Assembly: GCF_004193175.1 (NCBI RefSeq)
Contig: NZ_SAUH01000001.1
Span: 1,715,501 to 1,779,500, forward strand
Source of the DNA: Streptomyces sp. RFCAC02
GTDB taxonomy: Bacteria > Actinomycetota > Actinomycetes > Streptomycetales > Streptomycetaceae
Direction of reading: 5' to 3'
Length of the DNA stretch: 64,000 nucleotides
The position numbers and the translations under genes are program-made. Under the pieces are notes generated by a model, which saw only the letters and a program-made list of their open reading frames with translations, did not search any database and had not been told where the DNA came from. This document shows, piece after piece, positions 48,627 to 64,000 of the stretch. Numbering within the stretch: position 1 is the first letter of the stretch; the number at the start of each line of letters is the position of its first letter.

Positions 48627-50870
48627 TCAGACGGAACGACTGCCCGGGGCGCCCGACGTATCCAGGGGGTCCGGTGGCAGGAGTACGCCGGCGGTCAGGC
48701 CGGTGGTGAGGGTGGCCGCGGTGTCGGCGGCGAGGTCGGCGGTCCGGCGGACGGTCGCGCGCAGCTCGTGCACGCGGCGGAAGGCCTCCCCGTAGTGCCG
48801 CTGTTCCTCCAGGGGCAGCAGTGGTACGCGCAGGCGGCCCGGAGTGACGTGCACGTGGCTGCTGCCGGTCGACGCGGAAGCGATGTTGTCCTCGGCGCCG
48901 AGGAACCCGGCCAGGAACCACGGGTCGAGGCGGGCGGGGTCGGGGCGCAGGAGGTGGATGTGCTGACCCAGGAGGGCTCCGGCGTCCCGGTCGTCCGCCA
49001 CCCGGGTCATCGCGGCTGCGTCGCCGCCGCCCGCGACGGCGCGTACGAGGACGTCCCCGGTGGCTACGGTTCGCGCGGCATCCGCTTGCATGTCGTCAGC
49101 AGTGCCGGACGGCGGATCTCCCGCCGCAATGTCGCGGGCGGCGAGCACCGGCCGCTCCACGGCGGCGGCACCGGAACCCTTGGAGCCTCGCGTGCCGGGC
49201 GTCGCCGCCCGCAGGACGGTCAGGGCTCCGCCACGTGCCAGGTCGGAGACGGTCGCCGTACGCCACTCGCGGGCGGAGGCCCCGGACGGCTGCCACCCGG
49301 CGGAGGCGGAGGAGGCCGCCAGCGCGGCGACCTGTTCGGCCAGTTGCTCATGCAGGTCGTCAACGCGGCAGGACAGGGCGGCCGGGTCGATATCGGCCGC
49401 GACCGCCCGGACATGGCGGGCCGGGGTGACGTCGACGACATCGTCGAGAAGGTCGACAATCGGTACCGCGCGGGCGACACCGGGCTCGTCGACGTAGGTG
49501 TCGGGTGCGGTGGTGAACGCGGTCCACTGGCCGAGGATCCGGTCGGTCAGCTCCGCCCAGTCGAAGGAGGCGGCGGCGGAAGCGGACGAGCCGGAACGGC
49601 GGGTCCGTGAGCCGCCACGGGTGCCGGCGTCGGCCGTGGCTGTGTCAGTGGCGGACGCCGTGCCCGGGGCGCTGTCCCGCTGCTCGCCCTCCCCATCGAT
49701 GAACAGCACCGTCGTACGGTCCGTACCGCCTGGTTCGGGGCGTTGGAACATCCAGATCTGCAAGCCGATGTGGAGCGGATACGCGGCACGCGCAGGAAGG
49801 GACACGACGGCGCGCAGTGCCCCGCCGCGGATGAGTTCCGCGCGGACGCGTCGGCCGGAGGCGCGGAAGGCGAGTGCGGGCGGCAGCAGCATGATCGCGT
49901 GGCCGCCGGGTTCCAGGTGCGCGAGGGCGTGCTGCACCCAGGCCAGTTCCGACTCGAAGCGCGGCGGAAGTCCGTACGCCCACCTCGGGTCGTAGGCCAG
50001 CTCGTCGTGGCCCCAGTCCCGGTCGGCGAACGGCGGGTTGCACAGGACGGCGTCCACGGTGACGTCAGGGAAGGCGTCATCGCGCAGGCTGTCGCCGACG
50101 CGGATCGCCGTCTCGGCCTCGGGTGCGGCGAGCAGCAGCCGGACCGCGGTGCGCCGGCCCTGGACGGGGAGCGAGTCCTGCCCGAACAGCTCCCGCGCGC
50201 CCTGCTGGGCGGCGACAGCCAGGAGCATGCCGCTGCCGCAGGCGGGATCGAGGACACGGGACACGCCGGTGGGCAGGAGCCGTGCCATGAGCAGGGCCAG
50301 GCCCTCCGGGGTCTGGTAGACGCCGCTGGCGGCACCCTCGTCCAGTTCCCGTTCGGCGAGGACGTCGACGGCGGCCTGTGGCCCCGCCTCACGGACACAA
50401 CCGAGCAGCGCGCGGACCACGTCCGCGTCGCCCGGACCGTAGTGGACCGGCTCGGCCCCGGGCACGGCGGCCGGAGACTCGCCCGCAATCTTCTCCGCTC
50501 GGGCGGTCAACTGGTCGTCGGACATCGCGGCGAGTTCGGCCAGTTCCTCCGGCGTGCGGCGGGACGCGGCAGCCACCAGCGGGAACTGACGCGCGGCCAC
50601 TCCCGAGCCGGGACCCAGCAGCCGGAGCGCTGTACGCAATTCCTCGGTCGGCGAGGCGATGGAGGTGTGCCCGCGTCCCCGCAGCCATGCCTGGACGGCC
50701 GGCAGGTCGTAGAGCGGACTGGATTCCGTGCCTGCGCTGGGAGCCGGGAAGTCGTCGTGGCGGCGGCGCCAGTTGCTGACGGTGGCGCGCGTGACCCCCG
50801 CGATACGGGAGATCTCGGCGGCCGTCACGTGCGCGGAGGGCGCCGGTCGGGCGGGGGGCTGCTGGGGCAT
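48627..50870 (-). CDS. N6-adenine DNA methylase with N-terminal helix-turn-helix
   Basis: A 747-residue protein. Residues 10-75 form a MerR/excisionase-like HTH (VTAAEISRIAGVTRATVSNWRRR). The methylase core has TPEGLALLMARLL, motif I LDPACGSGMLLA and motif IV VLCNPPFAD. The last 250 residues resemble an HsdS-like target-recognition domain (LARGGALTVLRAATPG, VPLLPLEEQRHYGEAFRRV with following helix), so it may be a self-contained methylase. It is divergent from a Rad50-like ATPase with an inverted repeat between them that the HTH might bind. Confidence 0.88.
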   Translation of the reverse strand: MPQQPPARPAPSAHVTAAEISRIAGVTRATVSNWRRRHDDFPAPSAGTESSPLYDLPAVQAWLRGRGHTSIASPTEELRTALRLLGPGSGVAARQFPLVAAASRRTPEELAELAAMSDDQLTARAEKIAGESPAAVPGAEPVHYGPGDADVVRALLGCVREAGPQAAVDVLAERELDEGAASGVYQTPEGLALLMARLLPTGVSRVLDPACGSGMLLAVAAQQGARELFGQDSLPVQGRRTAVRLLLAAPEAETAIRVGDSLRDDAFPDVTVDAVLCNPPFADRDWGHDELAYDPRWAYGLPPRFESELAWVQHALAHLEPGGHAIMLLPPALAFRASGRRVRAELIRGGALRAVVSLPARAAYPLHIGLQIWMFQRPEPGGTDRTTVLFIDGEGEQRDSAPGTASATDTATADAGTRGGSRTRRSGSSASAAASFDWAELTDRILGQWTAFTTAPDTYVDEPGVARAVPIVDLLDDVVDVTPARHVRAVAADIDPAALSCRVDDLHEQLAEQVAALAASSASAGWQPSGASAREWRTATVSDLARGGALTVLRAATPGTRGSKGSGAAAVERPVLAARDIAAGDPPSGTADDMQADAARTVATGDVLVRAVAGGGDAAAMTRVADDRDAGALLGQHIHLLRPDPARLDPWFLAGFLGAEDNIASASTGSSHVHVTPGRLRVPLLPLEEQRHYGEAFRRVHELRATVRRTADLAADTAATLTTGLTAGVLLPPDPLDTSGAPGSRSV

Positions 50871-50930
50871 GGCGTGGGGCTCCGCACCTCTCGGGCCAGT
50901 TGGACGGGGACAGCTAACACATTACAACGG

Positions 50931-50958
50931 TCGTCAAGCTCACCTGCTCGTTTGACGA
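50931..50958. promoter_or_regulatory. Inverted repeat in the divergent methylase/ATPase promoter
   Basis: TCGTCAA at 50931-50937 and TTGACGA at 50952-50958 form a perfect inverted repeat with a 14-base spacer, in the AT-richer part of the 334-base intergenic region. It is a candidate operator for the HTH of the methylase. The rest of 50871-51204 shows no supported gene; a long in-frame extension of the ATPase lacks coding character. Confidence 0.5.
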
Positions 50959-51204
50959 TGCTTTCAGTGTCATGCTTATCTAGTCATGGTTCCAAGCGGA
51001 AGCGTGACGCTGACTCGCGACCGTGCTGTGGAGCGCCCTGTCGCCGTACCGCGTCACGCACCGAAGTCGCCACCCGCCGCACATGCCCCCTCCACGCCGC
51101 CCCACCACCACCCCGACGCGAACGCCGGGACACCATCCGCACCGACCGCGTGCCGGTGTCCGCCCCATCCTCCGCATCAGCATCCGGCCTCCAGGAGACA
51201 GGAC

Positions 51205-53664
51205 ATGACAGTGACGGAACAGCCCCAGCGGAATGCGGACGACCCCGTCGACCCCACTCGGCCGGATTCCGCCGACCAGCCCGCGCACCTGGCCGATCTG
51301 GTGCGGACCCGTCTGGGCGAGGCAGCACTCACCGAGTCCGTGAAGGCGCTTCTGAAGGAGGCGCTGGGCGAGAGTGAGACCCGTGGGATCTCTCCGGTCG
51401 GGCGCGTCTACCTCGACTCCCTCACCATCAACGGCTTCCGTGGCATCGGCCCCCGCGCCCGGCTGAATCTCAGCCCCCGTCCCGGTGTGAACCTCGTCGT
51501 GGGCCGCAACGGTTCCGGCAAGTCCAGCCTCGCCGACGCCATCGAGGTCGGCTTCACCGGCACCCGGGCCCACCGGCCGGGCCAGAACGCCACGCGTGGT
51601 GGCCACTGGGCCAACCTCCACAACGCCGAAAACCCCAGGATCGAACTCAAGCTCGCGATCGAGGGCGACACCGGCAACAGCACCCTCACCCGCACCTGGA
51701 CGAGCGAGGAGTTCGGCAGCTCCGAGGCCGCCATCAAGCGCCCGGGCCACGGAGCCGTCCCCCTGGCCGAGGCCGGCTGGGACACCGCCATCGCCGACCA
51801 CCGGCCGTTCCTCTCGTACACCGACCTCGACCTCATGCTCAACGGCAAGCCGTCCGAGCGGTACGACGCGATCGCCACCATCCTCGGCATGGACCTGCTC
51901 TCCACCGCGGCCAACGGGCTGAGCGCGCGGGAGAAGGCCCTCGCCACCACCGCGAAGGAGACGAGGGATGCCCTGCCCGTCCTGAAGGACGCCCTCTACA
52001 CGCTGGAGGACGACGACCGCGCCGTACAGGCCCTGCTCGCCGTGGACGCCTCGGGCGCCCCGGACCTGGACACCATCGACGCGCTCGTCGCCGGTCTCCC
52101 CCCGGCCGACGACAGCCGGCTCGCCGAACTGCAGATCGAGGCCGGGGCACACGGGCCCGACCTGGCAGAGGTCGGGGAGGCCGTCCAGCGGCTGCGGATC
52201 GCCCTCGCCGACGTGGGGAACCTCCACGGCACCGACGCCGAGAACGCCCGGCTGCGCGCCGACCTGCTGGAGAAGGCCCTCGCCCACGCCGAACGGCACC
52301 CCGACGACGACGCCTGTCCGGCGTGCGGAACGGAACGGGTCCTCGGACGGAAGTGGCGCGACCGTACCGCCCGGCAGGTGGCGGAGCTGCGCCGTGAGGC
52401 GAAGACCGCCGAGGACGCGCACGCCGCCGTCGGGGCGAGTAAGCGGAACCTCCAGAACCTCATCGAGAACCCGAAGCGGATCCCCGCCGCCCTGACCGGC
52501 CCGTGGAAGGCGTGGACCGACTGCCGGCAGATCACCGACCCCGCCGAGCTCGCCCGGAGCGCCGAAGAGGCCGCCACGGTCCTCGCCGACGCCTGCGACA
52601 CCGTCAGGAGGCACGCGGCCCGTGAACTGGAGGAGCGTGACGAGCGGTGGCGCGCGCTCGTCGTCCGGCTCGCCGCCTGGGCGGACAAGGCACGCAAGAC
52701 CGAGCGGGACAAGCCTTTGCTGCGCGACCTCCGGAAGGCGGTGAAGTGGCTCAAGGACCTCTCCACCGAGCTGCGGGAGCAGCGCATGGAGAGCTTCACC
52801 GACGCCACGCAGGGCATCTGGGAGCGCCTGCGGCAGGAGAGCAACGTCGACCTCACGGCCGTGAGCCTGAAGGGAAGCGAGAAGGCGAACGTCCGCAAGC
52901 TCGTCATGGCGGCCTCCGTCGACGGCCAGGACGCCCCGGCGCTCGACGTCATGAGCCAGGGGGAGCTGCACTCCCTCGCGCTCTCCCTCTTCCTGCCGAG
53001 GGCCACGACCGCGGACAGCCCGTTCGGCTTCCTTGTCATCGACGACCCCGTGCAGTCCATGGACCCGACCAAGGTGCACGGACTCGCCCAGGTGCTGCAC
53101 GAGATCGGCAGGCACCGGCAGGTCGTCGTCTTCACCCACGACCCCCGTCTGCAGAAGGCGTTCACCGACCAGGAGCTGCCGGTCACGGTCTTCCAGGTCA
53201 CTCGTGGCGAGAAGTCCCGGGTGCGGATCGACCGCGTCCACGACCCGATCGCACAGGCCATCGGTGACGCCCGGGCCTTCGCCGCCACCCGGGGCCTTCC
53301 CTCCGAGATGTACAGCCACGTGCTGCCCGGTCTGTGCCGCATGGCCCTGGAGAACGCCTTCCTGGAAGCCGCATGGATCCGCCACCACCGCACCGGCGGA
53401 TCGGAACACGACCTCCAGGCCGCCATCGACAGCGCGGGGAGGTTCCAGGAGCTCGCGGCCCTCGCCCTCTTCGGCGACGTGAAGCGTGGCAATGACGTCA
53501 AGGAGGAGGTGCGCCGCCGCTACGGGGACCAGGCGTGGCCGCTGATCCGGACGTGCCAGAAGGGTGCCCACCCCGACGGCGCCTCGATCCCCAGCCCCCA
53601 CCGCTTCGTCACGGACATCGAGAACCTGGCGCAGCACATCCGCAAGCCGGAGGTGACCGCGTGA
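51205..53664 (+). CDS. Rad50/SMC-like AAA ATPase with CxxC zinc-hook motif
   Basis: An 819-residue ATPase. Walker A is VVGRNGSGKSSLADAIE (about residues 97-113) after a typical SMC N-terminal strand (LTINGFRGIGPRARLNL). A helical arm with CPACGTERVLGRKW near residue 372 gives a Rad50-style CxxC hook. The second arm leads to the ABC signature-like MSQGELHSLALSLFLP and Walker B FLVIDDPVQSMD with HDPRL. AGGAG precedes ATG 51205. It should act as a DNA- or RNA-end sensing dimer. The small downstream gene is translationally coupled to it. Confidence 0.88.
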   Translation: MTVTEQPQRNADDPVDPTRPDSADQPAHLADLVRTRLGEAALTESVKALLKEALGESETRGISPVGRVYLDSLTINGFRGIGPRARLNLSPRPGVNLVVGRNGSGKSSLADAIEVGFTGTRAHRPGQNATRGGHWANLHNAENPRIELKLAIEGDTGNSTLTRTWTSEEFGSSEAAIKRPGHGAVPLAEAGWDTAIADHRPFLSYTDLDLMLNGKPSERYDAIATILGMDLLSTAANGLSAREKALATTAKETRDALPVLKDALYTLEDDDRAVQALLAVDASGAPDLDTIDALVAGLPPADDSRLAELQIEAGAHGPDLAEVGEAVQRLRIALADVGNLHGTDAENARLRADLLEKALAHAERHPDDDACPACGTERVLGRKWRDRTARQVAELRREAKTAEDAHAAVGASKRNLQNLIENPKRIPAALTGPWKAWTDCRQITDPAELARSAEEAATVLADACDTVRRHAARELEERDERWRALVVRLAAWADKARKTERDKPLLRDLRKAVKWLKDLSTELREQRMESFTDATQGIWERLRQESNVDLTAVSLKGSEKANVRKLVMAASVDGQDAPALDVMSQGELHSLALSLFLPRATTADSPFGFLVIDDPVQSMDPTKVHGLAQVLHEIGRHRQVVVFTHDPRLQKAFTDQELPVTVFQVTRGEKSRVRIDRVHDPIAQAIGDARAFAATRGLPSEMYSHVLPGLCRMALENAFLEAAWIRHHRTGGSEHDLQAAIDSAGRFQELAALALFGDVKRGNDVKEEVRRRYGDQAWPLIRTCQKGAHPDGASIPSPHRFVTDIENLAQHIRKPEVTA

Positions 53665-54035
53665 CCGCCCCTTCCCCTGCTTCCGTCGAAGGTCTGCTGC
53701 TCACGGCCGACCGCCTCTTCAGCGGCGAACTCGCCCACGCCACCACCGCCGGCAGGCACCGCGGCGCCTGCCTCGCACTGCGGACCGCACTGGAACTCTG
53801 CGTCGACCGGGCAGTGGAGACCGCGATGCCCAGCCTGCCCCGCACCACGGGACGCGCCAAGCTGCTCCTCCTGCACTCCGTCGCACCCGCGGAGACGGCG
53901 CGACGCGCGAAGGCCCTCTGGTCCCAGCTCAGCCTGGGTTGCCATTACCACCTGTACGAGCTCGGGCCCACGTACGACCAGGTGCGGGCCTGGCGGGTCG
54001 AGGCCCACGGCCTCGTCCGAGAACTGGTCCTGTGA
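53661..54035 (+). CDS. Small helical protein coupled to the Rad50-like ATPase
   Basis: A 124-residue all-helical protein starting with GTG that overlaps the ATPase stop (GTGA). It shows RHRGACLALRTALELCVDRAVE and RVEAHGLVREL but no motif that I recognise; the fold could be HEPN-like, though the diagnostic R-x4-6-H is not clear. Strict coupling suggests a subunit or regulator of the ATPase, comparable in position to the small subunit of SMC-based defence systems. Confidence 0.7.
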   Translation: MTAPSPASVEGLLLTADRLFSGELAHATTAGRHRGACLALRTALELCVDRAVETAMPSLPRTTGRAKLLLLHSVAPAETARRAKALWSQLSLGCHYHLYELGPTYDQVRAWRVEAHGLVRELVL

Positions 54036-54128
54036 CTGTTCGCCATCGTCCGGGTTCTGATAGTTGTTTCAGCGGGGTACGGGCGCATGCCCGTGGCGGT
54101 GTTCCCCGGCACCGCAGGGAGGACGCAC

Positions 54129-57100
54129 ATGAGCAGCACCACTCGGGACGAGATCCTCGCCGGCGAGCAGCGGGCGGTGGACCACGCGTATGACTGCTAC
54201 ACCGCGAAACTGGCCGAACTGAACGGCACATCGGCCGCCACCGCCTCGGCGAGCGGCAAGGACGGAATCGCCATCCGGGCCGAGGTGGAAACTCGTGCGG
54301 AGGCATACGGAGGACTCGGCGACGAAGCGCTGGTCTTCGCCCGTGTCGACGCGCCGGAAGACGCAGGAGGAGAACCCCGCCCCTGGTACATCGGTCGCCG
54401 CGGCGTGCACGATGCTTCGCACGAACCGGTGGTCCTGCTGTGGACCAGTCCCATGGCGAAGAAGTGGATCGAGGCCCGGCCGGAGGATCCGGGCGAGGTG
54501 GTCCTGCGCCGGCAGCTCCGCTGCGTGCGGCAGGTCGTCGAAAGCTACTTCGACGAGATCTCCTCATCGGCGTCCGTTCCCGCGCCCTCGGTCGTGTCCG
54601 AGCCAGAACTCGCCGCCGTACCGGAACCTCGTGCAGCCACCGACGACAGCGTGGCCGAAGAGACGGAGGCGTCCCGGGGCCCCAGAGCGTGCGCCGGTCC
54701 CCACGCCCGGCGACGTCGTACGCCAGCAGCGGCGGAAGGGGCTCCAGCCGGACGAATTCCTGCTGCGGGAACTCCAGCGGTCGCGTGGCGGCCGGATGCG
54801 GGACATCGTCGAGACCATCCGCCGTGACCAGATGGAGCTGGTCACCGGCTCGCCCTCGGACATCCTCGTCGTGCAGGGCGGCCCCGGAACCGGCAAGTCG
54901 GCGGTCGGCCTCCACCGGGTGACCTGGCTCGTCAACAACGAGCACTTCAAGGCCCGGGACATCCTCGTCATCGGCCCCCACCAGCGGTTCCTCGACTACG
55001 TCGGACAGGTCCTTCCCACCCTCGGCACCCGGGACGTCAACGCCGTCCAGCTGGACCGCCTCTGGGAGGGTGAGATCCTCGGCACCGACTCGCCGAAGGC
55101 GCGGCTCGTGAAGTCGGACGAACGCATGGCGGCCGTTCTGCGACGCCGCGTCGAGAGCGACTACCGCCCCCAGGCCCTCGACTCCCTCACCGCCGTTCCC
55201 TCGTTCAAGGGTGACGAACCCGGGATCGTCGTCACCGCCGGCAGTACGGCCCTGCGCGTGCCGAAGTCCGGGGTCCTCGCCCTCCTGGACCAGGCCCACG
55301 CAGGCGACGGGCCCTTTCGAGAGCGGCGCGACCGTTTCCGCGGCCTCTTCGTCGACCGGCTCCTTCGAGAGCTCGCCGACATCGCACCGCGCCGCGGGCA
55401 CACCGGCACGATCCGCCGCGACCTGGAGCGCAACCGCCGGGTCGAGCGCCTCGTCGAACGTGTCTGGCCGTCCCCCGGACCCCGGGAGGCCCTGCGCAGC
55501 CTCTACGACTCGGCCGACCTCCTGCGGGACTGCGCCGACGGCATCCTCGACGAGACGGAGCAGACGGCCCTGCTGCGAGCCCGTGCCGCCAGCGCCGACG
55601 CCGACCCGTGGACCCTCGAGGACCACGTCTGCCTCGAAGAGCTCGGAGTGCTGATCAGCGGCGACACGCCACCGAGATACGGCCACATCGTCGTCGACGA
55701 GGCTCAGGACCTCACGCCCATGCAGGCCCGCTCGCTGCGGCGCCGCTGCGCTGCGGGCGGCTCCATGACCGTCCTGGGCGACCTCGCGCAGGCGACGGGC
55801 GCCCATGTCCCGACGAGCTGGGACCTGCTCGGCGCGCTCCTCTCCGACCACGGAGACTGGAGCGTCGCCCGGCTCGACAGCAGCTACCGCGTCCCCGCCG
55901 AGATCATGGAGTTCGTCGCTCCCCTGGCCCGTGCGATCGCCCCGTCCCTGCCGTACCCGCAGGCTGTCCGTGAGGCAGGAACGGACGCCGTACGGACCGT
56001 GGCGACCGAACCGTGGAAGCTGCTCGACGACACCGTCGCCCACGTGGCACGACTCGCGCGCACCAATGACGGCAGCACTCCCCGCTCCGTGGCGGTCGTC
56101 GTCCCCGACGACTCGGACTGGCTGGACGCCATCAGCCGGCGGATCCACGAGGGCGACGACATTGCCGAGCGGGACCGCGAGGCGGTGTCCGTGCTGGCCG
56201 CCGCCCAGGCCAAGGGGATGGAGTACGACCACGTCCTGGTCGTCGAGCCCGCCACGATCGCCGACCGCGGTCCCGCCGGGCTGCGCCAGTTGTACGTGGC
56301 CCTCACCCGCAGCACCCAGAGCCTGACCGTCCTGCACACCGCCGCGCTGCCGGAAGCACTCACGGGTACCGGGGACGCCCAGACGCCATCAGTGTCCGAC
56401 GCCCTTCCGGAGAGCGACGGGGCCGAGAGGCTCCCTCTGGTCGGCACCGACGTGCGGGTCGAGGTGGTGGACCGGGCTCCGGGCGGTCGCTACAAGGTCA
56501 GGGCGCTGTCGCCGGTGATCGACCGGCCGCTCGTCCTCACTGTCCGCCACGGATCGGCGCCCCCACGGCGGGGCGAGAAGCTGGACTGCTGGGTGTTCGT
56601 GAACGAGACGACCCAGACAGTGCTCACCGCCGACCAGCGCGGTCGGTCACCCGTTTCGGAGCGGATGGCGGGGCGCTACCTCGCGGCACTGGACATCCTC
56701 GGGGAACTGGCCGGTAGCGACCGCGACGTCCCCGACGCCCGCAGCCGCCTCTCCGAACTCCAGGGCATGGCCAACCGCGTCCTCCGAAGGGACCAGGCGG
56801 ACTGGGTCGACATTCTCCACCTGCTCGGCGATCCGGACAGGGAACGGCTCGCAGCCCTTCGTGACCTCGCCGCATCCGCCAACCGCGCACTCAAGGGGGG
56901 CACTTTCGACGCAGGCCGGCTCGCGGAGAGACTGGCTGCTTCCGGCTGGGCCGGACCCCTCGCAGCAGCACGGCGGGATCTGCGGGAGCGCTTCGGCACG
57001 GCGACGGAGCCGGACTTCGACGACGCGGCCCCCGTCGCCCCGACGCAACCCGATCAGGAGGAAGAAGAGCGGATGACCACCGCGGAGACCACCGCCGCAA

Positions 57101-57534
57101 CACCGGACGAAACCACGAAGGTCGGTCTCCTCCGCGCGCTGGAAGCGGCTGCCGGAGCCGACCGTACATGCAAGAAGCACGAGGCGGTCCGCCATGCGCT
57201 GAAGGCGGCTCTTCTCTGGGCGGACCTCCAGCCGACTGACTCACCGGTCGTCGACGTCAGCTGCGTCACCCAGTACGGCCACTTCCTCTACGAGGCCCTG
57301 GGTGCAGGCTGCTCGACCTATACGGACCTGCGATCGGGCGCGACCCGTCTGCTCGAGATCAACCACACTCTGCCCGCACCGGCCGACGGTCTCTACCTGG
57401 TCCTCGCCGATCCACCTGCCGAAGAATGGTCTGCGGACACGATTCGCGACGTCTTCGGTGTCAATGTCATCTGGCGCAGTCCGACCGGCTGGGGCGGTGA
57501 GGAGGCGGGCGGCGCCTTTGGCTCCTCCGGGTGA
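54129..57534 (+). CDS. HelD-like SF1 helicase with C-terminal extension (frameshifted as sequenced)
   Basis: About 1,134 residues after correction. ATG 54129 follows GGAGG. The N-terminal 180 residues (EILAGEQRAVDHAYDCYTAKL, PWYIGRRGVHD) match actinobacterial HelD proteins. The frame then shifts at CCCGGGGCCCC (54673-54683), one extra base. The helicase core follows: Walker A GGPGTGKSAVGLHR, Walker B HIVVDEAQDLTPMQ, GDLAQATGAH, VALTRSTQSLTVL. HelD proteins dislodge stalled RNA polymerase. The last 155 residues after a Glu-rich linker form an extra domain of unknown type. Its position in a defence island suggests an adapted role. Confidence 0.82.
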
Positions 57535-57841: not shown

Positions 57842-58051
57842 AGTCACGCAGAGGCCCCCTCCCTTGCGGGAGAGGGCCTCTGACCTGTGGAGCTAAGGAG
57901 AATTGAACTCCTGACCTCTTGCATGCCATGCAATCCAGCCCCCGCCAGAGCAGCCCACATCGGCCCACTGACCTGCACGAACGTCCCCTGACGTACACCA
58001 CGATCCGCGGCGCTCCACGCCCGTTGTCACTCACTTAGTCACTCACCCCGC
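57842..58051 (-). repeat. Island boundary repeat B with tRNA-Ala 3'-half
   Basis: A direct repeat of 38640-38849. On the minus strand bases about 57934-57888 give the anticodon loop ATGGCAT (GGC, alanine), T arm AGGAGTTCAATTCTCCT and acceptor strand TAGCTCCA. The 5' half of the tRNA is missing. This is an attachment-site copy; the intact tRNA-Ala gene is expected to the right of the window. Confidence 0.82.
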
Positions 58052-58240
58052 GCCCTCGAACACGAAGACACCTTCTCTTCAGCACCGCGCGAACTCAGGC
58101 CGGGATGACATGATCAGTCGGGTGCGACCCTCCACAACTTCAGCGACACCCCGGGTCCGACGACACGACCGAAGGTCCGCTGCAAAACACCCTCGCACCC
58201 AGCGGCCACCAGCCATCCTGACCTGTGGCTTTACTCTGGG
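58052..58240 (+). promoter_or_regulatory. CRISPR leader
   Basis: 189 bases between the island boundary and the first perfect repeat. The array decays at its far (right) end, so the leader and promoter are on this side and the array is transcribed rightward. No gene is supported here. Confidence 0.6.
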
Positions 58241-59139
58241 GTCGTCATCGCCCCTACGAGGGGTACCAACGCGGCGGCACACCGGGCCGAGGCCGTCCCG
58301 CGAGGGGTCGTCATCGCCCCTACGAGGGGTACCAACAGTCCGGTCTCATCGGCACCGTGGCCATGGCCAATATCGTCGTCATCGCCCCTACGAGGGGTAC
58401 CAACATGACGGCGACTTCCACGATCCGTGCCTCGTGGTCGAGGGTCGTCATCGCCCCTACGAGGGGTACCAACGGCGTGATGCCGGTCTCCTCGCGGAGT
58501 TCCCGCAGTAGTCGTCATCGCCCCTACGAGGGGTACCAACTCTTCGACGAGCTGCGCGAGCATGGCGCTGATGCCGTCGTCATCGCCCCTACGAGGGGTA
58601 CCAACGGAGGGGCCGGGAGGCCACCACCTCTACGACGACGGGGTCGTCATCGCCCCTACGAGGGGTACCAACCCGAGCAGGAGCGGTGCGCCGCGTGGCT
58701 GTCGGAGCAGGTCGTCATCGCCCCTACGAGGGGTACCAACGGAGCGCGCCGAGGCCATCGCGCGCGCTGATCTCCACGTCGTCATCGCCCCTACGAGGGG
58801 TACCAACTCCACTCGGCCGATGAGCCGCGCGGCGCCTCGGGTCGTCGTCATCGCCCCTACGAGGGGTACCAACCGTCGCCCGCCGGCGCTGTAGGTCTGG
58901 CAGGGCGGGTCGTCATCGCCCCTACGAGGGGTACCAACATCGTCCACCGGTCGGCGGTGGGGCTGTACCGCGCCCGTCGTCATCGCCCCTACGAGGGGTA
59001 CCAACGTGGTGCGGGCGCGGGAGCAGACGGGGCAGGCCCGTAGTCGTCATCGCCCCTACAAGGGGTACCAACAGACGGCAGCAGAGCCACCGGGCGGGTC
59101 GGCGGCCGGGGCCTCATCGTCTCCGTATAGGGAACGAGT
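58241..59139 (+). CRISPR. Type I-B CRISPR array, 13 repeats plus one decayed repeat
   Basis: The repeat is 30 bases, beginning GTCGTCATCGCC and ending GAGGGGTACCAAC, with an internal hairpin CCCCT-ACG-AGGGG. Perfect copies start at 58241, 58307, 58375, 58444, 58511, 58576, 58643, 58711, 58778, 58844, 58909 and 58976. The copy at 59043 has one change (CTACAAGG). A 14th, strongly decayed copy lies at 59110-59139, exactly one 37-base spacer further on. Spacers are 35-39 bases and all different. The 3' end ACCAAC should form the crRNA 5' handle after Cas6 cleavage. No cas1 or cas2 is seen within the window. Confidence 0.97.
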
Positions 59140-59307
59140 TCCGCGCCGATGATCGACGACGCCATCGCCGCCCGGATGCAACCACCGCTACATAGCCGCC
59201 GCACGATGGTCGCCGGATCCGCAAACTGAGAGCAGCGCAAGTGCACTCACCGTTGATGAGGCGGCGAGGCCAGCCAGAGCCAGTCTCACCGCTCCATCGG
59301 GCCAAAC

Positions 59308-59398
59308 GTTGCCCCTCTGAGGGGCGATGATGCCAACTTGCGACCACCACTTAGCAGGTAAGAAGCAAGTTGCGACCCCTGCACAGCCGTCACGTCCG
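59308..59398 (-). ncRNA. CreR-like degenerate mini-CRISPR (pseudo-repeat, pseudo-spacer, pseudo-repeat)
   Basis: On the minus strand a first pseudo-repeat ends AGGGGTCGCAAC (59380-59369), matching the last 12 bases of the CRISPR repeat at 10 positions. It is followed by a 34-base pseudo-spacer starting TTGCTTCTTACC (59368-59335) and a second pseudo-repeat (59334-59308) matching the repeat at 23 of 27 positions with one 3-base gap; its CCCCT/AGGGG hairpin is intact. The pseudo-spacer resembles 59472-59491 ahead of cas6. This is the layout of a CreR or CreA guide RNA in type I-B loci. Expression is not shown. Confidence 0.7.
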
Positions 59399-59471
59399 CG
59401 AACGCTGGGGCGATGACACAGATGAGGATAGGCCGACAAGCCACCCCTCCCAAGCTTCTGCGTGCCTGTCG

Positions 59472-59526
59472 TTGCTACTTATCTGCTGTGTACCGCTTGT
59501 GCTGCGAAGCATGGGTCTGCTACGGT
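59472..59526 (+). promoter_or_regulatory. Predicted cas promoter with overlapping CreR target
   Basis: TTGTGC (59497-59502), an 18-base spacer and TACGGT (59521-59526) form a plausible -35/-10 promoter about 100 bases before cas6. The sequence TTGCTACTTATCTGCT (59472-59487) and its continuation match the pseudo-spacer at 14 of the first 16 positions; one mismatch is at position 6, which type I Cascade does not read. Bound Cascade would cover the -35 box. The 5' flank, the potential PAM, is TCG. Confidence 0.6.
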
Positions 59527-59627
59527 CCCCTCGGCCAGGGCCACTGTGGCAGGGGCCACTGACAATCAGGCCCGGAGCCGTGCGTGCTGGTGGGCGGGGA
59601 CTTCAGGATTCAGGGCGGGGATGTGCC

Positions 59628-60371
59628 ATGCGGCTGCGTCTCGAAGTGCACACGAAGGCACGGAGGTTGGAGTGGGACGATGTGCTCGCTCCGGGGCGCG
59701 CCTTCTCGTACGGGTTGCTGGAACGCGGAGCGCCGGCGTTGGGCTCCCAGCTGCACACGTCCGGCTGGGGACCTCACGGTATGGTCCCTTTCGGGTACAG
59801 CGCGCCCATGTTCCCGAAGGCCAGGCGCCAGCGCGGGGTGTATGCCTCGGACGGGCCGGGCGTCATCGAGCTGGGGAGCCCACTGCCGTCCGTCGTAGAG
59901 GGGTGGGCAGCGGCGCTCCGCGAGATACCGGTCATCGGGTGGGGAGCGACGGCGCTGTTCATCGACCGAGTCGTGGCCGTCGAGGCCCCGCCCTTCACCT
60001 CCGGACGAGCCACGTTCCGCACGGTGACTCCCGTGGTGATGAAGTCCTCCGGCAGGGACGACTCGGGTACACGGGTACGGCGCCAGGCCTGGTGTCTGCC
60101 TGGTGAGCCGGAATGGGACGTGTATATGCAGGCCAACCTGCGACGGAAGGCCGAGACCCTCGGTCTCGATCCCGATGTGAGCCTCGACGAAGTGCGCTGG
60201 GTCGGCCCGAAGCGGTCGTTCAGCGTGGCCAGCGCGTCGGGGCCAGGGGGCAAGAAGCCCGGCGCATGCGTCGAGGTGGCGTTGTCCGGTGCGCCGGAAA
60301 CGCTCTCGGCGATCCACTCCTGGGGGCTCGGTCAGGCGAACGCCGCCGGCATGGGCTGGATCGGAGCATGA
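59628..60371 (+). CDS. cas6: CRISPR endoribonuclease Cas6
   Basis: A 247-residue Cas6, which cuts the pre-crRNA at the base of each repeat hairpin. The N-terminal ferredoxin-like strand is MRLRLEVHTKARRLEWDD, and the C-terminal Gly-rich loop is HSWGLGQANAAGMGWIGA, diagnostic for the family. A His in QLHTSGWGPHG (about residues 44-54) may act in catalysis. The start is ATG 59628 after GGGCGGGG. It heads the cas operon, in the same direction as the array. Confidence 0.93.
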   Translation: MRLRLEVHTKARRLEWDDVLAPGRAFSYGLLERGAPALGSQLHTSGWGPHGMVPFGYSAPMFPKARRQRGVYASDGPGVIELGSPLPSVVEGWAAALREIPVIGWGATALFIDRVVAVEAPPFTSGRATFRTVTPVVMKSSGRDDSGTRVRRQAWCLPGEPEWDVYMQANLRRKAETLGLDPDVSLDEVRWVGPKRSFSVASASGPGGKKPGACVEVALSGAPETLSAIHSWGLGQANAAGMGWIGA

Positions 60372-60450: not shown

Positions 60451-61863
60451 ATGGCTGACAAGCAGGAGACGGAATGGTCAGTGGTGCTGACCTCGAGCCC
60501 ACTGCAACGAGCGGGGGCGTTCGCGCTCGCCGCGCTGGCCGACGTCGACCATCCAGACGAACTGACGTCGGACACCTTCCTGGAAACCGTCAACCGTATG
60601 ACCGGCGATCTGCTGGTCACCAGCGAGGTGACCAAGGCCGACGAGCCCGGCGGCTTCTGGCTCAGCGCCAGTTACATGCTTTGGCCCAATTCGAAGATCA
60701 ACCCGACCGCCCGGAAGAAGCAGTCTCCGGCCGAGCGGCGCGACGCGATTCGCGAGTGGCGAGCCGAGCCTGGACCCGCTGACCGTCTGGACGCGCCGTG
60801 CGCCTACTGCGGGCGTGGGGCGTACACGTGGTTCGGCAAGGTGGACATCCCGCTCGGGGCCAGTGTCGCCCACCGGAACACCACAGCGAGGGGACATGAG
60901 GGCACTCCATTGTGCTACCCCTGTGTGGCAAGCTTGTGGGCCTTTCCCTACGGGGCGACTTTGTCGGGTGGTCGTGCCGCCCTGGTGCACTCGTGGGACG
61001 ACACCTTCCTCGCACGCACGACACGGCAGGCGGTGGACCGGACCCTTCGGGCGGCAACCGTGGCCATGCCAAAGGGGAAAAAACCCGTTCCCTACGCGCG
61101 TGAGTTGGCGGTGTTGACCGCAGTGCGGGCCTACACCCACCGCATCTCGGCGCCGGTGGAGCTGATGGTCCTCTCCAACTCCAACAAGGAGCAGCTGCTC
61201 GCTACGCAGGAGATGGGGCAACCGGTCGCCGAGTGGTTGCGGTCCACCAGGCGGTCAGAGGCCGCCTACCAGAGGCTGGCGATGACCCAGGGGACGAAGC
61301 AGGTGCCGGGCGAGGCGTTCCTCGCCAAACGGGCGTTCAGTCGGCCGGCCCAGGTGCTGGACTTCGCCGTCGGCCATCTGCTCTCGCGGATCTCCGCGTC
61401 GGTGTGCATCCCGGACGACGTGCAAGCGCTGGGTCCTCTCATCGACTCCTACTGCCGAAAGGTGCTGACGATGGACGACAAGGACATCGAGCAGATCAAG
61501 GCCCTGGCGCGACGTGTCGCCGGGCTTCTGGGACAGGACGACCGGCCGGGTCCGTTCCGGGACTTCATCCGCGCCAACACCAGGGGCGGCAACCTGCACG
61601 CCTGGTTCCGCATGAAGTCGGTGGACTGGCTGCTCTACCCCCGGCCGAAGGATGCCGCGCCGACCCTGCTGCCCGTCCGGCATTACCGACTGCTGTTCGA
61701 GGACGAGCGCTCCTGGTCGTATCGGCGGCTGTTGGTGTTCGCCGTGATCGAGGCCCTCGGCGAAGCCGGTTGGCAGCCGAAGGGCTCGAAGGAAGAGATT
61801 CAGGAAGTCGAGGAAGCGGCGAAGGCAGTGGCCGCTGACAGCGAGGAGGATGCGACGTCATGA
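60451..61863 (+). CDS. cas8: Type I-B Cascade large subunit Cas8 (Cst1-like)
   Basis: A 470-residue large subunit that recognises the PAM and helps form the R-loop. A zinc-finger-like pair CAYCGRGAY and CYPCVASLW (residues about 113-165) is typical of the Cst1/Cas8a1-b group, and the C-terminal part (RRLLVFAVIEALGEAGW) is helical. ATG 60451 is preceded by GGCAGGTG and more distantly by GGAGGAAGG. It overlaps cas7 by four bases (ATGA). Sequence divergence is normal for Cas8, so assignment rests partly on gene order. Confidence 0.88.
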   Translation: MADKQETEWSVVLTSSPLQRAGAFALAALADVDHPDELTSDTFLETVNRMTGDLLVTSEVTKADEPGGFWLSASYMLWPNSKINPTARKKQSPAERRDAIREWRAEPGPADRLDAPCAYCGRGAYTWFGKVDIPLGASVAHRNTTARGHEGTPLCYPCVASLWAFPYGATLSGGRAALVHSWDDTFLARTTRQAVDRTLRAATVAMPKGKKPVPYARELAVLTAVRAYTHRISAPVELMVLSNSNKEQLLATQEMGQPVAEWLRSTRRSEAAYQRLAMTQGTKQVPGEAFLAKRAFSRPAQVLDFAVGHLLSRISASVCIPDDVQALGPLIDSYCRKVLTMDDKDIEQIKALARRVAGLLGQDDRPGPFRDFIRANTRGGNLHAWFRMKSVDWLLYPRPKDAAPTLLPVRHYRLLFEDERSWSYRRLLVFAVIEALGEAGWQPKGSKEEIQEVEEAAKAVAADSEEDATS

Positions 61864-62915
61864 CGTTTCTGGTGGGGCAGAGCGTTCTGCAGATCAAGGC
61901 CGGTGCACCGAACAACGGGCGGGGCGAAGAGAACCGGGGCATGGTCAAGCAGTTCACGGCGGGGCGTGACACCTACCCGTATGTGTCTGCGCAGGCCAGT
62001 CGACGTTGGCTGCGGGACAGTCTGCCGGCGGAGGAGCCGACCTCTCCGGTCGTCCGCACCGGTGAGGGGAAGAAGCAGCAGGCCTACACGCACGGCAGGC
62101 CCGACCGCTACATGGACGACGATCTGTTCGGATACATGATCGCGGTCAAGGCCGGCACCGTGGACGGCAAGCGTGAGGAGTCGGGGACGTTCATGCGGGA
62201 CACGGTGCTGGCAACCGGCACCCTGGTGGCCGTCGTGCCGAACAAGCCTGTCATGGACTTCGGCACCATGAGCCGCGACTTCGAGCCCGACACGCACCCG
62301 GTGATCCATGAGCACGAGATGTACACCGCCAATCTGGCGGGTGACCTCCTGCTGGACCTTCCGCGGGTCGGGACGTTCGAGGTGGGCGGCAGGACGACCA
62401 AGCCGGCCCTGCCGAAGACGGTGGCCGATGCGGTACTCAAGGACGGCGGCAGCGAGGTGCTTCTGCGAGGCGTCGAGTGCGTTCGCCTGCCGGTCGTCGA
62501 ACGCCGGCGACGTGTCGCGGTGCTGCTCCGCACCATGGCGATGGTCAAGGGAGGCGCGAAATGGTCCGCCCACTACGGTGACCGCACTCCGGGACTGCTG
62601 ATCCTCGCACCGCTGAGGGGTGGCACCAATCCGTTCACCCGCGTGGTGCGCGAACGTCAGCGGGCCACTTACTTCGACGCCGATGTCCTTCGCGAGGAGA
62701 TCAAGGCGTGGGAGGACGAGCTGGACGGCCCCGTGCGCATCGGCTGGGCTCCCGGCTTCCTGGGGAGCCAGCGGGAGACGGCCAAGAGCGATCTCGAACC
62801 TCTGATCAAGGCCAACAAGGTGACCGTCGACCACCCCCGCACCATGCTGAACACCCTCGCCGCCGAATTCGAGGCGGGCACCCTCGACGCCTGGTTTGAG
62901 GATCCGTCCGCGTAG
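61860..62915 (+). CDS. cas7: Type I-B Cascade backbone protein Cas7 (Cst2/DevR)
   Basis: A 351-residue RAMP protein that coats the crRNA in multiple copies. Conserved elements are LQIKAGAPNNGRGEENRGMVK near the N-terminus, TYPYVSAQASRRWLRD, ATGTLVAVVPNKPV, and NPFTRVVRERQRATYF. These fit the Cst2/DevR family. Its ATG overlaps the cas8 stop. A gap of 83 bases follows before cas5. Confidence 0.93.
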   Translation: MTFLVGQSVLQIKAGAPNNGRGEENRGMVKQFTAGRDTYPYVSAQASRRWLRDSLPAEEPTSPVVRTGEGKKQQAYTHGRPDRYMDDDLFGYMIAVKAGTVDGKREESGTFMRDTVLATGTLVAVVPNKPVMDFGTMSRDFEPDTHPVIHEHEMYTANLAGDLLLDLPRVGTFEVGGRTTKPALPKTVADAVLKDGGSEVLLRGVECVRLPVVERRRRVAVLLRTMAMVKGGAKWSAHYGDRTPGLLILAPLRGGTNPFTRVVRERQRATYFDADVLREEIKAWEDELDGPVRIGWAPGFLGSQRETAKSDLEPLIKANKVTVDHPRTMLNTLAAEFEAGTLDAWFEDPSA

Positions 62916-62998: not shown

Positions 62999-63655
62999 AT
63001 GAGTCAGGCACTCGAACTGACCGTCACGGCTCCTGTCGTCAGCTTCCGCAACCCGCTCTACGCCGGGATGCAGGTCGGGTTGCCTTGCCCTCCCCCGTCC
63101 ACGGTGGGCGGCATGCTAGCTGCCGCCGCCGGAGGCTGGGACCGGGTTCCAGCAGGTACTCGGTTCGGGATGGCATTCCGGGCGGTCGGCTCGGGCACGG
63201 ACCTGGAGACCTTTCATCCACTCAGCGCCCCCGGTGCACCCATCACCATCAAGGACCGCGACTTCCTGGCGCTCATCACGCTCCGTGTGTGGCTGCTCGA
63301 CGACCTCGAGCCCTGGCAACGCGCGATCCGCCGCCCCGTCTGGCCCATGAAACTGGGCCGCAGCCAGGACCTGGTCACCGTCACAGCCAAGCACGTGAGC
63401 CTACGGACTTCGGTAGGCGTGCAGGGCCACGCGGTGGTTCCGCAGGACGTCAAGGGTGCCACCGGCACACAGATGCGGCTGACGACGGCCGTGTCCCTGG
63501 ACCGGCAGCGTGTCAGGTGGGACAGCTACCACTACGCGGCCTCCGGCTCATCCACGCGCATCGACACCGGCTTCGTCACCGAGGACGACCAAGCCGTCGC
63601 GCTACTGCCTCCCGTACACCCGCATCAACTCAATACGACTCCGGCGGAAGCCTGA
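62999..63655 (+). CDS. cas5: Type I-B Cascade subunit Cas5
   Basis: A 218-residue Cas5 that binds the crRNA 5' handle. The N-terminus ALELTVTAPVVSFRNPLYAG and PPPSTVGGMLAAAAGGW (the conserved pSTvxGml motif) are typical of Cas5t/Cas5b. GAGG lies upstream of ATG 62999; a GTG four codons earlier is possible. It is followed after 8 bases by cas3. Confidence 0.92.
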   Translation: MSQALELTVTAPVVSFRNPLYAGMQVGLPCPPPSTVGGMLAAAAGGWDRVPAGTRFGMAFRAVGSGTDLETFHPLSAPGAPITIKDRDFLALITLRVWLLDDLEPWQRAIRRPVWPMKLGRSQDLVTVTAKHVSLRTSVGVQGHAVVPQDVKGATGTQMRLTTAVSLDRQRVRWDSYHYAASGSSTRIDTGFVTEDDQAVALLPPVHPHQLNTTPAEA

Positions 63656-63663
63656 ACCTCGCC

Positions 63664-64000
63664 ATGAAGGAACTGCGTGCCAAAAGCGCCACCAAGGGCG
63701 GCCGCCCCGGCGAGCTGCTCACGAGCCACCTGCTGAACACCCTCACCGCGCTCGACGCCATCCGTGCCCGGATAGGTGACATCCCAGGCGTCCCCGCTGA
63801 ATTCTGGACTTGGGCCGCCCTGGCCGCACTCTTCCATGACACCGGCAAGGTCCCGGCCGGCTTCCAACGCATGGTCGGCAACACCACCGACCCCGCCAAG
63901 CCCTGGGGCGAACGCCATGAGGTCCTCTCGCTGGGGTTCGTCGAGGGCCTCCTGACACGGCTGTCCCCCCGAGACCGACTGTGGGTGGGCAGCATCGTCG
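63664..64000 (+). CDS. cas3: CRISPR helicase-nuclease Cas3, HD domain (runs off the window)
   Basis: Only the first 112 codons are present. They cover the start of the HD nuclease: LTSHLLNTL, the His-Asp pair in AALFHDTGKVPAGFQRM, and GERHEVLSLGF with a further metal-binding His. In type I systems Cas3 nicks and degrades target DNA recruited by Cascade. ATG 63664 is 8 bases beyond the cas5 stop. The helicase domain, and any cas4, cas1 and cas2, would lie outside the window. Confidence 0.9.
   Translation, partial: MKELRAKSATKGGRPGELLTSHLLNTLTALDAIRARIGDIPGVPAEFWTWAALAALFHDTGKVPAGFQRMVGNTTDPAKPWGERHEVLSLGFVEGLLTRLSPRDRLWVGSIV

Follow-up and report, generated by a model that had tools for sequence, protein, structure and literature searches.

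A pseudo-spacer matching the predicted cas promoter region: a candidate CreR-type guide in a Streptomyces type I-B locus and its relatives

Results

The mini-unit and its match to the cas promoter region

The DNA analysed here is a 64,000-nucleotide stretch of Streptomyces sp. RFCAC02 (contig NZ_SAUH01000001.1, positions 1715501-1779500; ‘the window’, from whose first base coordinates are counted), belonging to a genome of 6.1 Mb. Near its end lies a type I-B effector set, the operon cas6-cas8b-cas7-cas5-cas3, whose first gene starts at 59628. Between a CRISPR (clustered regularly interspaced short palindromic repeats) array and this operon, the minus strand carries a mini-unit (59420-59305) composed of a degenerate repeat, a pseudo-spacer and a second degenerate repeat. 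The mini-unit lacks the near-identical repeats of an ordinary CRISPR array; it sits near cas and outside the array, as guide units of the regulatory RNA CreR do. We call it creR, and its pseudo-spacer, the guide, matches the predicted cas promoter region. A search for known RNA families in 58000-59700 returned none. The features that carry the argument are the following.

59369..59420, minus strand: pseudo-repeat 1, which retains TCATCGCCCC and the handle GTCGCAAC (6/8 bases as in the repeat); an enlarged loop brings it to about 52 nt, against 30
59335..59368, minus strand: pseudo-spacer (guide), 34 nt, read from 59368
59305..59334, minus strand: pseudo-repeat 2, with 18/22 of its first bases and 3/8 of its last bases matching the repeat
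59469..59471, plus strand: TCG flank at the position of a protospacer adjacent motif (PAM)
59472..59487, plus strand: target site, 14/16 to the guide; a complete protospacer would reach 59505
59497..59502, plus strand: predicted -35 (TTGTGC) of the cas promoter, from sequence, inside the full protospacer
59521..59526, plus strand: predicted -10 (TACGGT) of the cas promoter
59425..59430, minus strand: predicted -10 (TATCCT) of the creR promoter
59448..59453, minus strand: predicted -35 (TTGGGA) of the creR promoter, 17 bases from TATCCT
59628..60371, plus strand: cas6 (Cas6b), assigned from one profile match below that model's cut-off plus further evidence

Read on the minus strand from 59368, the pseudo-spacer begins TTGCTTCTTACCTGCT; plus-strand positions 59472-59487 read TTGCTACTTATCTGCT, and 14 of the 16 bases match, the mismatches falling at positions 6 and 11. 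A preliminary description of this DNA had claimed such a 14/16 match, and we confirm it. The guide agrees with its site at nine of the ten positions 1-5 and 7-11, position 11 being the one that differs, and at all of 12-16. The same description had the target overlap the cas promoter. This stands for the full 34-base protospacer (59472-59505), which would cover TTGTGC, 18 bases from TACGGT, but not for the 16-base match, which ends 9 bases short of that hexamer.

Could the resemblance be accidental? A match of 14/16 spotted by eye might, taken alone, be a chosen coincidence, but the observed score was not reached once in 2000 Markov shuffles of the intervening region (p about 0.0005, the guide start being fixed by the repeat). 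The second-best real site for the guide in that region scores 8/14. Genome-wide, the pattern TCGTTGCTNCTTAYNTGCT has a single site without mismatch, the promoter site itself, and four other places with three mismatches, one of which is the guide; the reversed pattern, used as a control, has four places. The shuffles, the whole-genome uniqueness and the scan controls described below speak against chance, which we consider extremely improbable. It is unlikely at the level of the family, and only the window's own copy could owe its match to it.

Guide-site pairs in related loci

Regions upstream of cas6 were gathered from 392 genomes of the same genus (15 with a match, our own included), a species-genome collection (13 loci), 394 genomes of the class (21, again including our own), 341 genomes of the family of genome G542 (46) and a plasmid collection (2 records, one of them used). 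Deduplication left 84 loci, or 83 once L063, a copy of L034, was dropped; the cas6 start of L102 was extrapolated. A guide was defined as any non-repeat 16-mer behind a handle with at least 6/8 bases of GTCGCAAC, and a site as another non-repeat place matching it at no fewer than 9/10 of positions 1-5 plus 7-11 and at no fewer than 12 of those plus 13-16, whatever its flank.

This flank-blind scan of the 83 regions yielded 35 guide-site pairs in 26 loci, flanked by TCG in 19 cases, by TCT in two and by other triplets in 14; the background frequency of TCG is 2.5%. Shuffled targets gave means of 6.4 pairs and 0.15 TCG (20 runs), swapped loci 12.2 pairs and 0.40 TCG (20 runs), and reversed targets, scanned once, 15 pairs and no TCG. 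Fifteen loci, hereafter the divergent loci, share the layout of the window, with the guide on the minus strand and the site on the plus strand between guide and cas6; their flanks are TCG in 13 and TCT in two. The other six of the 19 TCG pairs have other layouts (L015, two in L050, L058, L078 and L080). In L050, a single guide has two tandem TCG-flanked sites, at -477 and -438 before cas6.

Unique loci whose cas6 is at least 67% identical number 24, and 13 of them have a pair. An earlier guide search had come up empty for L037 (= L014) and offered only a weak candidate for L028, and the later flank-blind scan recovered L014; L028 and L062 show a partial match by eye only and are left out of the counts. 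In L038 a target-like site (TGATCGAGTTTATTG after TCT) was seen at about -180 with no matching guide found, and in L013 no guide unit was seen; both are possible natural losses of the circuit. A comparison of the intergenic DNA of the locus with plasmids by nucleotide similarity found nothing.

Position-by-position record and co-change of guide and site

Across the 15 divergent loci, positions 1-10 are matched in 15, 15, 14, 15, 13, 3, 15, 12, 14 and 13 cases, and positions 11-20 in 14, 4, 14, 14, 15, 12, 9, 3, 8 and 3; over positions 20-36, 62 of 255 bases match, which is background. Positions 17, 18 and 19 played no part in selecting the pairs, and there position 18 falls like 6 and 12 while 17 and 19 remain above background. 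A Cascade guide leaves every sixth base of its footprint unpaired. The low counts at 6, 12 and 18 are this six-base rhythm of Cascade, not the residue of a decaying duplication. The preliminary description had supposed that position 6 is free and that a limited stretch of pairing gives way to mismatches; the counts at 6 and 12 bear out the first point, and the fading of the match between positions 17 and 20 in the relatives bears out the second.

Guide and site change together. The 15 loci hold 11 distinct guide seeds and 12 distinct sites, and each guide scores 12-14/14 on its own promoter and 7-11 on those of other loci, cross-scores of 12-13 being confined to L027-L030-L036, L033-L036-L065 and L074-L075. 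This record bears on the idea that the unit is a relic, a decaying mini-array whose self-matching spacer has no present function. Such decay would account for the degeneracy of both mini-unit repeats, and would sit well with a frameshifted cas3 and a genome that yielded no Cas2-family match (see Discussion), but a relic would not hold guide and site matched across 11 seeds, next to a recurrent flank and with positions 6 and 12 free. We judge it quite unlikely; the argument holds for the family, and the window's own copy could be idle.

Predicted promoters and what they would control

The case for the two promoters is that a TANNNT hexamer stands at a similar distance in the divergent loci: 39-49 bases after the protospacer start on the cas side (14/15) and, on the minus strand, 45-65 bases before the pseudo-spacer on the creR side (also 14/15). 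If TACGGT is the cas -10, the -35 region of that promoter lies inside the full protospacer. Since the two predicted promoters stand back to back, Cascade at the site might mainly serve another end, for instance to insulate them from one another or to feed primed adaptation. We hold this to be highly improbable: the site covers the cas -35 region and not the predicted creR promoter, and the genome yielded no Cas2-family match.

A different output has also to be weighed. In an antitoxin of the CreTA type, the target promoter would drive a small toxic product, RNA or peptide, which the guide represses, with cas expression secondary, and in L047, L048 and L045 a TCG-flanked site does precede an open reading frame (ORF) of 41-46 codons, itself located before the guide. 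In the window, however, only about 94 bases separate the predicted cas start from the cas6 ATG, and a terminator scan of the locus found none. cas6 directly follows the target promoter and no candidate toxin peptide was seen, although an RNA toxin without an ORF would escape such inspection. Out-of-frame short ORFs behind a ribosome-binding-like sequence occur in 11/15 leaders, with no common peptide seen. For the window we regard an antitoxin as unlikely.

The three loci deserve a description of their own. In L047 (about 405 bases before cas6) and L048, the order is TCG site, 41-codon hydrophobic ORF, same-strand guide and cas6, and the two ORFs are 60% identical; L045 repeats this order, but its 46-codon ORF is unrelated and its match weaker. 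The L047 ORF was not found on plasmids, and in the family of genome G669 it occurs in 2/35 genomes, both already known. The arrangement looks like a CRISPR-guarded small protein (CreTA/CrePA-like), so that relatives may have a toxin-guard version, one that differs in appearance from the unit of the window.

Other features of the locus

59547..59565, plus strand: dyad TGGCAG-N6-CTGACAA in the predicted cas6 leader, a possible operator of a protein regulator
58241..59072, plus strand: CRISPR array of 13 repeats, consensus GTCGTCATCGCCCCTACGAGGGGTACCAAC, the final copy with one change; spacers of 35-39 nt
59110..59139, plus strand: last repeat of the array, heavily degenerate (16/30 to the repeat)
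60451..61863, plus strand: cas8b, assigned from one match below cut-off plus further evidence; no NCBIfam match
61860..62915, plus strand: cas7 (Cst2/DevR, type I-B); no Pfam match
62999..63655, plus strand: cas5b
63665..64000, plus strand: start of cas3, which extends past the window and is split there by an apparent frameshift

The dyad pattern occurs once in the genome without mismatch and 15 times with one, and a similar CAG-N6-CTGACA was seen by eye in many related leaders.

Before the array, 48627-57534 holds possible defence genes: 48627-50870 (minus strand) encodes a type I methyltransferase-like protein, 50986-53664 an SMC-like ATPase and 54295-57534 a protein with weak resemblance to UvrD. 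A second CRISPR array beyond the window is followed by GajA and GajB, the pair of the Gabija defence system (L009:11473-15355, minus strand). No cas1 lies between cas3 and that array (L009:8607-9152), because the 545 bases of this gap are too few for a cas1 gene; Cas1-family matches occur in three other regions of the genome. In the plasmid relative L088, cas4 comes after cas3.

Discussion

CreR is a sister of the antitoxin RNA CreA, and Liu et al. 2023 reportedly described it as a CRISPR RNA (crRNA)-like regulator of cas operons. At our locus, the guide is partly complementary to the promoter predicted for its own cas operon, at a site with a fixed flank, as is typical of CreR. Based on these observations, the locus is best explained by a guide of the CreR type, whose partial pairing would repress cas; regulators of this kind are already known, and what is new is the record that evolution has left of guide and site changing together.

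How would such a guide act on its own operon? We consider it likely that the creR RNA guides type I-B Cascade to the TCG-flanked site at the cas promoter and so represses its own operon without cutting. The RNA would be transcribed from the TATCCT promoter, and Cas6 would release a guide bearing the handle GTCGCAAC. Cascade would then bind the template strand at about -61 to -28 of the predicted cas start and block RNA polymerase, the pairing being presumably too short to trigger Cas3. The crRNAs of the array would compete for Cascade, as reported for CreR, and cas output would therefore rise when crRNA is plentiful or Cascade is inhibited. Autorepression without cleavage had been suggested in the preliminary description, and guide-site co-change, the recurring TCG, the lack of constraint at 6 and 12 and the fade of pairing all argue for it at the level of sequence. 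An antisense action on cas mRNA was ruled out, because the guide reads like the non-template strand and the site is upstream of the predicted start.

Our case for autorepression of cas draws on three lines of published work. Haloarchaeal CreA tolerated changes at positions 6 and 12, whereas changes at 1-5 and 7-11 abolished the antitoxic effect (PMC8501985). With a spacer of 24 bases, a I-B Cascade repressed its target but no longer gave interference (PMC10989794). CreR, reported in type I and V-A systems (PMC12737573), is said to repress cas, and crRNA and anti-CRISPRs to relieve this repression (PMC12737573, PMC12948488).

Several points weigh against the proposed repression. Scanning 59080-59700 for the sigma-70 consensus revealed no promoter, whether for cas or for creR, and the predicted creR RNA folds no better than shuffles (z -1.06). 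The guide of the window carries a seed mismatch at position 11 and thus lacks the pairing at all of 1-5 and 7-11 that characterizes the seed of CreA; a single mismatch within these positions occurs in 10/15 divergent loci, the window included, unlike in the CreA examined experimentally, where each of the ten seed positions mattered (PMC8501985). The handle consensus was set, and positions 6 and 12 were exempted, once the first loci had been inspected, and the scan itself demanded at least 9/10 of the seed positions. The number of pairs is thereby biased in favour of the idea; the flank and the positions from 17 onwards are free of this bias. Among the unique loci of at least 67% cas6 identity, 11/24 have no TCG- or TCT-flanked pair. 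TCG is a candidate PAM, and spacer targets gave no means of deducing one: the spacers of the window array (13), of the array L009:9150-11100 and of the upstream arrays of L034 and L038 had no significant match listed in a phage collection. The best E-value in two of these comparisons was 0.07 among the matches listed (30 of 35 and 40 of 170 records), the other two comparisons gave no match, and pieces of two window spacers found nothing in viral_contigs.

The state of the local system belongs to the same side of the balance. cas3 is split after its helicase part by an apparent frameshift at L009:8120-8131 (about contig position 1781120, beyond the window): its pieces align with positions 1-559 and 562-700 of a single Cas3b model, and residues 1-646 of a relative's Cas3 align in one frame and 650-808 in another. 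The frameshift may be real or an assembly error. No match to the Cas2 family (PF09827) was found in the genome, although PF09827 matches only 7/14 control genomes. Given both, the local system may be decaying, and the circuit may be kept in the clade yet be idle or purely regulatory in strain RFCAC02. With respect to the seed mismatches, their presence at position 11 in the window and singly in 10/15 loci suggests a weaker binding that farther pairing would aid, and weaker binding would suit a feedback dimmer.

How does the locus compare with known systems? In CreR, as the reviews describe it, a crRNA-like RNA and the effector bind the promoter region of their own cas operon, and the same is predicted here. 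Compared on those descriptions only, our loci differ in being actinobacterial I-B systems with a TCG flank and an enlarged first pseudo-repeat, and in keeping the match to about position 17-19 with 6, 12 and 18 free. CreA has two divergent pseudo-repeats, the first retaining the handle and the second the hairpin part, a partial seed pairing that skips 6 and 12 and a target over a promoter (PMC8501985, PMC9458426), all of which resembles our unit; the unequal decay of the repeats is seen in most two-repeat creA genes (PMC8501985). CreA represses a toxin RNA, whereas the promoter here runs straight into cas6, and CreA has a seed of 1-5 and 7-11 and a haloarchaeal PAM 5'-TTC, whereas matching here is longer and includes one seed mismatch in the window. 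The literature matches listed contained no paper on such guides in actinobacteria, subscription papers being outside their scope, which is no proof of absence.

A further parallel comes from Cas9, whose autorepression is directed by a long form of the trans-activating crRNA (tracrRNA). There too, a CRISPR effector is brought to repress its own promoter by a natural guide that pairs over a limited stretch; that system is type II, with a tracrRNA-derived guide and a single-protein effector.

A broader model, to which we give about even chances, casts Cascade in the actinobacterial I-B clade as a permanent transcription factor whose operator rewrites itself. Private guide-site pairs would drift in step, with positions 6, 12 and 18 free, so that genomes record base flipping. 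The output would be swappable, being the cas operon in most loci with a pair and a short hydrophobic ORF in some (L047, L048 and L045), and a single cassette could be set either to immune feedback or to toxin-like guarding.

Should experiments confirm them, these pairs would provide a natural parts list for repression by native Cascade in Streptomyces and Actinomadura. Co-changing natural pairs amount to an evolutionary test of Cascade-guided self-regulation: they show which guide positions selection keeps, and that some 17-19 matched bases remain where cutting must be avoided. Our reading suggests that self-regulation by a guided Cascade is a recurrent feature of type I-B systems in actinobacteria.
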